Shown: piece after piece, positions 15,477-18,078 of the stretch
Layout: every line of letters starts with the position of its first letter
Position numbering within the stretch: position 1 is the stretch's first letter
DNA from: Adhaeribacter arboris
Lineage (GTDB): Bacteria; Bacteroidota; Bacteroidia; Cytophagales; Hymenobacteraceae
Assembly: GCF_003023845.1 (NCBI RefSeq)
Contig: NZ_PYFT01000001.1
Span: forward strand, 2,108,001-2,172,000
DNA length: 64,000 nucleotides
Direction: 5' to 3'
Made by a program: the position numbers and the translations under genes
The notes under the pieces: generated by a model
What the model was told of the DNA's origin: nothing
Databases searched by the model: none
Seen by the model: only the letters and a program-made list of their open reading frames with translations

Positions 15477-16550
15477 CTAGCTCCAAGCATTCCTTAGGAA
15501 ACGTACCCAATTGCCCTGCATTACGTTCTGAATATCTTCTTCGGAGTAGCCCCGGTGAGATAATAAATCGGGGATCTTTTGTAAATCGGCAATGGTTTCT
15601 AAATCAAAAGGACTTTGTTCTTGGCCAAAAGCGCCATCTAAGTCGGAACCAATGCCGATGTGCCGGGTATTACCGGCCAATTGGCAAATATGATCTAAGT
15701 GATCGATTACGGTTTCCAGCGAACAATTCATTTCTTGAGGAGTAGATTCGCCCCGTTTCCAGTTGGGTACCAGCATCCAGGCATCGAAAGCCCCGCCAAT
15801 AACCGCTCCCCGTTTAATTAGTTCTTTTAATTGTTCATCGCTGAACTGCCGGTTGTGGTTTACCAAACTCCGGCAATTATTATGGCTGGCCCACACCGGC
15901 CCGTGAAAACAATCTAAGGCATCCCAGAAGGCATCATCGCATAAATGAGTAGCATCTAAAATAATGTTGAGTCGTTCCATTTCGCGCAGCAGTTCTTTGC
16001 CTTGAGAATTTAAATTACCCGTCGCATCAGTGCCGTTGGCGTATCGGCCCGGACCGTAGTGCGCCGGCCCAACGGCTCTTAATCCATTTTGCCAGGCTCT
16101 TTCCAGATGCCCAATGGTAACGAGTGAATCGGCGCCTTCCAAACTTAAAATATATCCGATGGGTAGATTTTCTGAGTTTGCTTCTGGGGCTGTCCAGCGT
16201 TGTAAATGATTTTCCAAAGAAGCTTTATCGGTAATAGCCGTCAACTCTCCCACTTCTTCCATGCTGCGGTACCAGGCTAATTGGCCCTGCGTTTGGGCCC
16301 AAGCTTGTTCCGGCGAATGCCAACCCGGTAAGGGATTACTTGGAGCAACGTATCGGGCAATTTGCGTAGCTACTACTAATCCCACATTCCCCCGTCGAAG
16401 TTCCGGAAACGCAACGATTCCTTTTCCCCGGTCCGGCAAATCCGTTTTATGCTTTTCGCGTTCGCGGAGGTTGTGAACGGGTTGACGTAAATCCCGGTTC
16501 CACTCCAGGGCATTCATGGCAAGGTCGAGGTGGGCATCTATAGTAAGCAT
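15477..16550 (-). CDS. Membrane dipeptidase (peptidase M19, renal dipeptidase family)
   Basis: 357-residue zinc-dependent dipeptidase with a TIM-barrel fold. The metal-binding HLD motif is in TIDAHLDLAM near the N-terminus, the bridging glutamate in ILSLEGAD, later histidines in ATHLCDD and ASHNNCR, and a conserved DLDG in IGSDLDGAFG. M19 enzymes hydrolyse dipeptides and tolerate a D-residue at the C-terminal position, which fits neighbours that handle D-amino acids. No signal peptide is seen, so it is probably cytoplasmic. A 406-base gap with a GC-rich island separates it from the upstream PLP-enzyme gene of the same strand. Confidence 0.9.
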   Translation of the reverse strand: MLTIDAHLDLAMNALEWNRDLRQPVHNLREREKHKTDLPDRGKGIVAFPELRRGNVGLVVATQIARYVAPSNPLPGWHSPEQAWAQTQGQLAWYRSMEEVGELTAITDKASLENHLQRWTAPEANSENLPIGYILSLEGADSLVTIGHLERAWQNGLRAVGPAHYGPGRYANGTDATGNLNSQGKELLREMERLNIILDATHLCDDAFWDALDCFHGPVWASHNNCRSLVNHNRQFSDEQLKELIKRGAVIGGAFDAWMLVPNWKRGESTPQEMNCSLETVIDHLDHICQLAGNTRHIGIGSDLDGAFGQEQSPFDLETIADLQKIPDLLSHRGYSEEDIQNVMQGNWVRFLRNAWS

Positions 16551-16956
16551 TTTAATATTTTTAATTTCTTCTGTTTTCTGGTATTACTTGAAGTCTTTTC
16601 AAGTCTCCATACTGCGGCGCTGATGCGGTTTGATCAGTAACCTGGTTGCCTCATGGCCGACGGGCCTCATTTGGCTCTTCCGGGCCGGTCTGAGCTTCCG
16701 TTCCTCGGAATGCTAAAGCACCGGAATCTTCGAAGGCCCTCCACCGCCAAACTGATGTCGTTTATTCTTGGCTCCGGTCTTTCGCTATAGATGGAATTTA
16801 ATTATACTAAAGTTTATCTACATATTTCAGAAATAACATGAGCGTAAGTTTATAGCTACTGTTTGTACCTAATTACTAACCGAAAGAGGAATTGTCTTAC
16901 CCAAGCGTAAGCTTAAAACGTATATCTTACAACTTAAAACATACAACTTACGAGGC
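16551..16956. repeat. GC-rich intergenic island, possible dispersed repeat
   Basis: 406 bases between two minus-strand genes that otherwise look like one operon. The part from about 16612 to 16790 is much richer in G and C than any other gene-free stretch here and contains short inverted repeats (GGCC flanking GACG near 16656; TTCCG/CGGAA near 16698; a 7-bp stem ACTTGAA/TTCAAGT at 16586-16604). On the minus strand, 16654-16761 is a stop-to-stop open frame of 36 codons, without a start codon, that translates to a charged, proline-rich peptide ending GPEEPNEARRP. No known family is recognised. It could be a decayed repeat element or gene fragment. Confidence 0.4.
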
Positions 16957-18078
16957 TCAGACAGTAATAAACCGGTTACGGGAAACTACGGCCCATTGGG
17001 TTTTAATGGTATTATCTTCGGCTACGTAGGCTTTATCGTAAAGGGCACACGTAGGGCATATATGGATGGGGATACCGTAAAAAACATCTCCTACCTGGTA
17101 CGTATTACCAAAGGTTACTTTCACAACCAAATGTTCTTCGCTTTGCGAAATGGGTTGCGCATCAGGGGCATTCAGAAATATTACGCGGGGTAAAGGACTT
17201 TCGGCGGCAATGGCTTTATGGCCTAAATCGAGACAAAGCGTTTCGGCATCCATTTTAGAAATAACACGGGTTGCTACTAAAGCCGCAAACTGAAAAGACT
17301 GCTCAGACAAAGTGGTGCTGTACCCATAATCCCAAAAGATAAAAGTACCAGGGCTACACTCCACTCCGGGTCGCTGAGCATGAAGGGGGAAAGTAGGCGA
17401 ACCACCCGCTACAATAATAGGTTTTACATAACCCTTAGCCATTATTTCGGCGGCCATAGCAGCTACCGGTTCAAAGGCGGCATCACAGGCAATTTTTCGT
17501 AAATTTATATCCGGGTCACGCAAATGGCCATCGTAGGCGTGTAAACCAATTGGTTGTATTCCGTTTAAGCGGTAACAAGTCTGGTATAGCTCCAAGGCTT
17601 CCGGACCAGGCACAATGCCCGTCCGGTTCATGCCTACGTTTAAATCTAAAAAAATAGGTAAGGTTAAATTTGCCGGGGCAAATAGAGCGGCAATGCTTTG
17701 TGCTACGGGTAAATTATCTACTAAACAGGAAAAAGTCGTATTCGGGTACTTTTGTACTAATTGCAATAATCGATTTATCTTAGGACCAACCGGTTGATAC
17801 GCTAAAAGCACGTCGGGCGCTCCCGCCTGAGCCAGCATTTCGGCCTCCGCAATGGTGGCACATTTAAATTTAGTAATACCGGCCTCCAACAAAAGATTGG
17901 TTACTTCGGCCATTTTGTGCGTTTTTACGTGCGGCCGCAACCATTCTAACCCCGATACCATAGAGGTAAGCAACTGAATATTTTGTTTTACTCGCTCCGG
18001 ATAAACAATCAGCGCCGGTGTATCAATGGTATCTATATTGGTGATCGTATACCAGGCAAGAGCATCGGTTTCAATCAT
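16957..18078 (-). CDS. PLP-dependent D-serine dehydratase / D-threonine aldolase-type enzyme
   Basis: 373 residues, alanine-racemase-like PLP barrel plus a C-terminal beta domain. The PLP lysine lies in RPHVKTHK (K52), the family signature. Near the C-terminus HICPT gives H339 and C341. A His-x-Cys zinc pair is, as I recall, the arrangement of eukaryotic-type D-serine dehydratases, while D-threonine aldolases use His-x-Asp; this favours a dehydratase but does not prove it. A dehydratase would produce 2-aminoacrylate, the very substrate of RidA, which is encoded 123 bases upstream in the same direction. The start ATG gives a normal family length. Confidence 0.8.
   Translation of the reverse strand: MIETDALAWYTITNIDTIDTPALIVYPERVKQNIQLLTSMVSGLEWLRPHVKTHKMAEVTNLLLEAGITKFKCATIAEAEMLAQAGAPDVLLAYQPVGPKINRLLQLVQKYPNTTFSCLVDNLPVAQSIAALFAPANLTLPIFLDLNVGMNRTGIVPGPEALELYQTCYRLNGIQPIGLHAYDGHLRDPDINLRKIACDAAFEPVAAMAAEIMAKGYVKPIIVAGGSPTFPLHAQRPGVECSPGTFIFWDYGYSTTLSEQSFQFAALVATRVISKMDAETLCLDLGHKAIAAESPLPRVIFLNAPDAQPISQSEEHLVVKVTFGNTYQVGDVFYGIPIHICPTCALYDKAYVAEDNTIKTQWAVVSRNRFITV

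Follow-up and report, generated by a model that had tools for sequence, protein, structure and literature searches.

Most of what is known about small structured repeats, ERIC and REP among them, comes from Proteobacteria. The unit of a REP or REPIN element is a hairpin of 20-40 bp tagged by GTAG or CGTC. REP elements are described as occurring behind genes, where the gap is convergent or co-directional, often as pairs, and as showing GT pairing (PMC3733652). For the enterobacterial ERIC and YPAL elements, terminal inverted repeats with TA ends, an RNA fold and a position behind or between co-transcribed genes are described, and their orientation is said to matter for the effect on mRNA stability (PMC2229807). 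The same source presents the NEMIS or Correia elements of Neisseria as MITEs that have terminal repeats of about 24 bp and TA ends, with a transcript hairpin acting on the mRNA (PMC2229807).

With few or nearly identical copies to compare, it is difficult to test for in-place selection on the folds of ERIC- and REP-like elements. The family described here, from Adhaeribacter arboris and related Hymenobacteraceae, provides a natural data set: it has more than 100 diverged copies per genome, copies that are orthologous between species, and compensatory changes that took place after insertion. This allows one to ask whether RNA folds delivered by transposons turn into working parts of operons. 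The repeat appears to form a hitherto undescribed family within a known class of small bacterial repeats, and it adds to the families that are absent from Rfam.

The repeat, its insertion and its hosts

The window is the stretch of 64,000 nucleotides of A. arboris DNA to which coordinates without a locus or genome prefix refer; the features so located lie on the minus strand. An expanded gap at 16551-16956, made up of the element and its AT-rich flanks, separates a gene with Ala_racemase_N and D-ser_dehydrat domains (16957-18078; Pfam PF01168, PF14031) from a gene encoding a membrane dipeptidase of the Peptidase_M19 type (15477-16550; Pfam PF01244, 1.3e-51). Within this gap, the initial annotation had marked 16612-16790 as a GC-rich island in a probable operon, differing in composition from all other gene-free DNA, carrying inverted repeats and perhaps representing an inserted, dispersed repeat. 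The island indeed has a GC content of 0.57, compared to 0.40 for the next-best 179-nt stretch and a mean of 0.30 over the 34 gaps. Both neighbours share one strand, and seven of the eight genus genomes, namely those that bear the dipeptidase, preserve this gene order. The inverted repeats are present as well, as members of a covarying structure. The borders of the island have to be shifted: the actual repeat core spans 16586-16777, reaching slightly beyond the left border, with the RNA 5′ end at 16777 and the 3′ end at 16586, and lies on the strand of the racemase-like and dipeptidase genes. This core matches the full covariance model R1 (positions 1-199) with 185.7 bits; the alignment from which R1 was built contains the window copy. 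The repeat family in this way accounts for a GC-rich island that annotation otherwise leaves blank.

Dispersal of the repeat was confirmed in the genome itself. A whole-genome search with the 201 bases of 16600-16800 returned at least 40 places including the query, the others having 72-82% identity, and R1, derived from an alignment of 43 distinct copies, has at least 148 matches (E <= 0.01) in the 7.25-Mb genome when 150 of 953 candidates are scored, with 116 strong matches reaching 93.2 bits. The 43 training copies fit R1 by construction, which is not the case for the additional copies.

That the repeat was inserted can be read from the gap between the racemase-like gene and the dipeptidase gene, measured from the end of the racemase match. 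This gap comprises 409 nt here and 405 nt in the closest relative (G003), both with the element, and 11-12 nt in three relatives (G001, G002, G007); in G004 and G006 it measures 175 and 331 nt, both without the element. The G003 copy between these two genes is orthologous to the window copy. At a second locus, the gap between the aligned flanks is 293 nt in G004 and 258 nt in G006, compared to 590 and 610 nt here, and G003 retains a remnant of 37 bits. The gap lengths show that the element was inserted between the racemase-like gene and the dipeptidase gene. A longer target-site duplication was not found above the level of shuffles, and a TA duplication is indistinguishable from the terminal repeat itself.

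At E <= 1e-5, R1 matches in 15 of 39 genomes, the own genome included; these are 15 of the 25 genomes of the family, and none of the 14 genomes from other families of the order has a match. When the best 150 candidates per genome were scored, 110 matches were counted in G022, 62 in G008, 59 in G002, 21 in G013, 9 in G021, 7 in G018, 5 in G014 and 4 in G005. The exact pattern of the P6 region, one of the hairpins of the core, occurs in at least 120 stretches of named genomes. Among the 80 pattern matches listed, 79 come from Pontibacter, Adhaeribacter, Rufibacter or Sabulibacter, all of them genera of the Hymenobacteraceae, and the single match in Nocardia is probably due to chance. Plasmid, phage and viral collections gave no match to the repeat. 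In Rfam, the window segment has no match up to E 5, and a scan of 17 related loci yielded sub-threshold matches, with no family at gathering score and no ERIC match listed; a known RNA family was rejected as an identity on these grounds. Full-text searches of open-licence papers brought up no relevant paper on repeats or MITEs in Adhaeribacter, Hymenobacteraceae or Pontibacter.

A branched fold maintained by compensatory change

The core folds into a branched structure that is read on one strand and is backed by strong covariation. For 43 copies, RNAalifold predicted 34 pairs at -24.6 kcal/mol on the minus (RNA) strand, compared to 13 pairs at -5.7 kcal/mol on the opposite strand. In alignments of four lineages (the own genome, A. 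rhizoryzae, P. fetidus, and G008 together with G013), it is again this strand that folds better, the values for this strand and the other being -22.4/-17.9, -43.1/-38.3, -38.1/-29.6 and -49.6/-40.3. The resulting structure of 39 pairs, with helices P1 to P7 named by hand, has 93.7% of its cells paired, versus 87.5 ± 0.4% after shuffling, and shows double-sided change in 21 of the 39 pairs, versus 8.6 ± 1.6 in shuffles. Controls in which the structure was slid along the alignment were 29-54% paired, with none above 54.2%.

In this architecture, a stem consisting of P1, P2 and P3 is capped by two hairpins, P4 and P5, and is followed by P6 and then by the 3′ hairpin P7. In the window copy, P1 joins a 5′ arm at 16746-16751 (TTTGGC) to a 3′ arm at 16670-16675 (GCCAAA); within the family covariation this is helix 1, with 98.1% of cells paired. 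P2, likewise defined by family covariation, joins 16736-16739 (GGGC) to 16682-16685 (GCCC). The 5′ arm of P3 (16723-16733) has the consensus TCTAAG-G-TTCC and reads TCGAAG-A-TTCC in the window copy, where the 3′ arm (16689-16699) is GGAAGCTCAGA. P4 (16710-16721, GTGC-TTTA-GCAT) is the most variable hairpin of the family, and the P5 region (16694-16710) has lost, through a deletion, about 12 alignment columns that most copies retain. P6 (16655-16666, GGCC-CGTC-GGCC) represents the most widely conserved motif (GRGGCCYSSCGGCC). The terminal hairpin P7, GGAGACTT-GAA-AAGACTTC at 16590-16608, follows from the family covariation as helix 8. Judged by eye, the window copy is degraded, with two P3 pairs disrupted and the P5 loop missing. 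When folded alone, its stability is not unusual (z -0.98 and -1.77).

Orthologous copies reveal what happens to the fold after insertion. Sixteen copies sampled from three further congeneric species were compared with 101 of the own copies, which number at least 148. Matches of both flanks to a copy-bearing own locus were obtained for five of six copies in G003, none of five in G004 and two of five in G006, and the orthologous pairs number eight, the window locus included; for the pair of L145 and L053, in which there are two adjacent own copies, the copy with the better match was used. Conservation is higher in paired than in unpaired columns for all eight orthologous pairs. Both sides have changed in 24 of 307 base-pair comparisons, including 20 double changes from one Watson-Crick pair to another, where about 1.6 are expected under independence. 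The fold is thus maintained by compensatory change at orthologous sites.

In A. rhizoryzae (G002), two subtypes can be distinguished by eye through a swap of the entire P3 helix. A second repeat block, CCCTTCCGCCCTCCGGGCACC...CCCTAAATTAGGGAAGGAGTTCGGCCGAACC, was observed in this species about 50-130 nt upstream of the core in L152, L154, L155, L158, L159 and others. It is joined to most of the A. rhizoryzae cores seen there, and many assembly contigs stop just past it. Downstream of the core in L153 (700-800), a tandem repetition of the 3′ hairpin module (AGCACCTCNGC and its hairpin) gives the impression of a modular build.

Mobility, gene context and the level of constraint

Beyond the core, the flanks of 101 copies were aligned separately, and the upstream and downstream consensus blocks are mutual reverse complements. 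A terminal-repeat profile of about 30 bp, seeded from the same copies on which it was tested, has 47 matches in the loci searched, 39 of them within 120 nt of a core and all 39 in inverted orientation. Genome-wide, the terminal-repeat pattern matches 26 times, and its reversed control does not match at all. Both ends were found in 10 of the 101 copies, giving an element length of 285-319 nt, and almost every one of these has TA close to its ends; the terminal repeats are imperfect and are kept by a minority of copies. Since a per-copy test for inverted ends that makes no use of the profile exceeds shuffles in only 2 of 43 copies, the evidence for terminal repeats comes from the alignment across copies and from the profile. 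Other species that bear the core hardly ever have these ends. No autonomous element with these ends occurs in the genome at 3 mismatches, and a pattern search of 60 family genomes found no autonomous IS with the same ends. Three identical end matches in G014 were rejected as an autonomous element, as they belong to a short repeat of about 130 nt and not to a longer shared element. This repeat, from another genus of the family (L131:2361-2488, L132:2440-2566, L133:2406-2491), carries a motif, ATACTAAATTGAAATAAAGAAGACGTAAG, that resembles the element ends.

Copies in the own genome that lie within 1200 nt of each other have their 5′ ends facing in 10 of 10 pairs, including L048:3799-4316, L053:1501-2077 and L030:1177-1707, at a spacing of 98-867 nt in the nine pairs measured; by eye, the same holds for eight of eight close pairs among the R1 matches listed. 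The spacer between paired copies carries other GC-rich palindromic repeats, of the CGAGCGAGGACGCTCGC type, in L015:1142-1482 and L014:1096-1482.

As judged with a simple ORF caller, 80 of the 101 copies follow a gene of their own strand: 43 lie in sense orientation between co-directional genes and 37 between convergent genes, while 15 are antisense and 6 divergent. The sense bias is thus 43:15 (p 0.0003), and convergent outnumber divergent positions by 37:6 (p 1.6e-6). In the named genomes, 68 sites could be placed out of 79 loci, one chance-looking locus being omitted, and the sense, convergent, antisense and divergent classes hold 20, 27, 8 and 13 of them, which is weaker and in the same direction. 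A Pfam scan of 19 proteins encoded on the 5′ side of copies (35 such genes were listed) returned diverse proteins without a common class.

The repeat is probably an old, family-wide, MITE-like non-autonomous element of Adhaeribacter and related Hymenobacteraceae, of which the co-transcribed RNA fold is conserved. The earlier spread of the element would be due to a trans-acting transposase that used the terminal repeats as its substrate and may no longer be recognisable in this genome. As part of the upstream gene's transcript, either at its 3′ end or between cistrons, the folded RNA would most likely influence mRNA stability or processing, a role already proposed for ERIC, YPAL and REP. A more far-reaching version is less likely, and we put it forward tentatively: the copies, about 150 per genome, may constitute a hitherto undescribed structured RNA family, a mobile 3′-end module of Hymenobacteraceae operons in which selection keeps each copy folded. 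If true, a genome-wide, transposon-delivered layer of RNA control would extend over unrelated genes.

RNA is favoured over DNA as the level of constraint because G.U cells exceed A.C cells. Pooled, their ratio is 131:53; counted per pair in the own genome, G.U prevails in 19 pairs versus 4. Against this, the first set of 43 copies gave 48:36 only, and one-sided changes in the orthologous copies are balanced at about 9:11. Given these two ratios, palindrome-templated DNA repair or gene conversion between copies could be responsible for part of the covariation. Also against RNA count the 19:7 obtained with a strict two-strand selection of pairs, single-copy energies calculated with RNA parameters, which show no strand preference (46 of 97), and the unremarkable stability of the window copy.

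The main competitor of an RNA-level reading is an element working at the DNA level, in which single-stranded DNA hairpins used for mobilisation, in a REP/RAYT- or IS200-like way, or quasi-palindrome repair would maintain complementarity without any RNA function. This appears rather unlikely, even though several observations suit it. The facing 5′ ends of the doublets recall the REP pairs as described (PMC3733652), a RAYT-like gene is present in the host, single-copy energies with DNA parameters prefer the same strand in 88 of 97 copies, and the orthologous one-sided changes lack a preference for G.U over A.C. Against it stand the pooled excess of G.U cells, the lack of any replichore strand bias among the copies, and the stronger conservation of paired columns at orthologous sites. 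Moreover, RAYT does not track the repeat: Y1_Tnp is found in 32 of 39 genomes and is absent from G008, which has 62 copies, and none of 13 RAYT loci contains a copy. The one RAYT gene of the host was therefore rejected as the driver.

It is less likely still that the repeat is nothing but the non-autonomous derivative of a DDE-type transposon with TIRs, a derivative whose interior would be selfish or neutral and whose fold would be a relic of master copies. Such an origin would explain the terminal inverted repeats, the 285-319 nt of the ten two-ended copies and the TA near their ends. However, no autonomous element with these ends turned up in the genome at 3 mismatches, compensatory changes go on in place after insertion, and the core is common to several genera, unlike the ends.

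A mobile RNA that is RNA-guided or reverse-transcribed (a TnpB omega RNA of the IS200-IS605 kind, a retron, a group II intron derivative, a DGR or a SINE-like element) would fit the long, branched, RNA-like fold and the many dispersed copies. It is nevertheless very improbable, and for the present host (G000) largely excluded: that genome has no match to the TnpB zinc ribbon (PF07282) or to reverse transcriptase (PF00078), the latter being without matches in G002 as well, and no Rfam family reached threshold. A former partner that has since been lost is conceivable. Elsewhere in the genus sample, G006 has four reverse-transcriptase genes with identical scores (G006:C1:2677729, 4154061, 5830043, 5849056), perhaps a recently spread group II intron.

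Finally, the initial annotation had also proposed a gene fragment, on the basis of a 36-codon stop-to-stop frame ending GPEEPNEARRP; this frame exists (16654-16761), but a short coding gene or gene fragment is hardly conceivable, as comparison among copies shows that the frame is not conserved and is a chance by-product, with anchor spacings that occupy each of the three frames (19/18/14; both anchors were located in 51 of 101 copies), a stop-free core in 3 of the 45 copies in which the frame could be placed, and compensatory changes of RNA type.

Comparison with described repeat families

Compared by description, the repeat is like ERIC (also IRU or RU-1) and YPAL (RU-2), as a small intergenic repeat with terminal inverted repeats, TA ends, many copies and an RNA fold. 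It is a short, dispersed intergenic element without a transposase of its own (at least 148 matches, no coding frame), and both filled (409 and 405 nt) and empty (11-12 nt, three relatives) sites exist; a minority of copies (10 of 101) carry inverted repeats at both termini, nearly always with TA close by. The position behind or between genes is shared too, these genes being co-transcribed in the case of ERIC and YPAL and presumably so here. In contrast to those elements, the repeat has a core of about 200 nt within about 300 nt between the ends, a branched fold of several helices in place of a single long hairpin, and a host range that, as far as seen, is confined to the Hymenobacteraceae.

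The likeness to REP, BIME and REPIN elements lies in the convergent or co-directional gaps, the position downstream of genes, the doublets in opposite orientation and the GT pairing. The repeat is several times longer, however, its core of about 200 nt being branched and not a hairpin unit; GTAG does occur near the 5′ end of many copies, yet without a unit of REP size. A RAYT gene flanked by repeats was not encountered in the 13 RAYT loci, and the distribution of RAYT does not correspond to that of the repeat. With NEMIS or Correia elements, the repeat shares MITE-like features, terminal repeats and TA at the ends; the NEMIS transcript forms stem-loops, whereas the conserved fold of the repeat is branched and lies inside the ends. 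The pneumococcal BOX elements are modular in build, which is reminiscent of the repeated 3′ hairpin module in L153 of A. rhizoryzae; their sequence, fold and host are unlike those of the repeat. Altogether, the repeat resembles ERIC, YPAL, NEMIS and REP by analogy, in location, size class, ends and likely transcription, and is different from them in its branched fold, its host range and the compensatory changes that occur in place.
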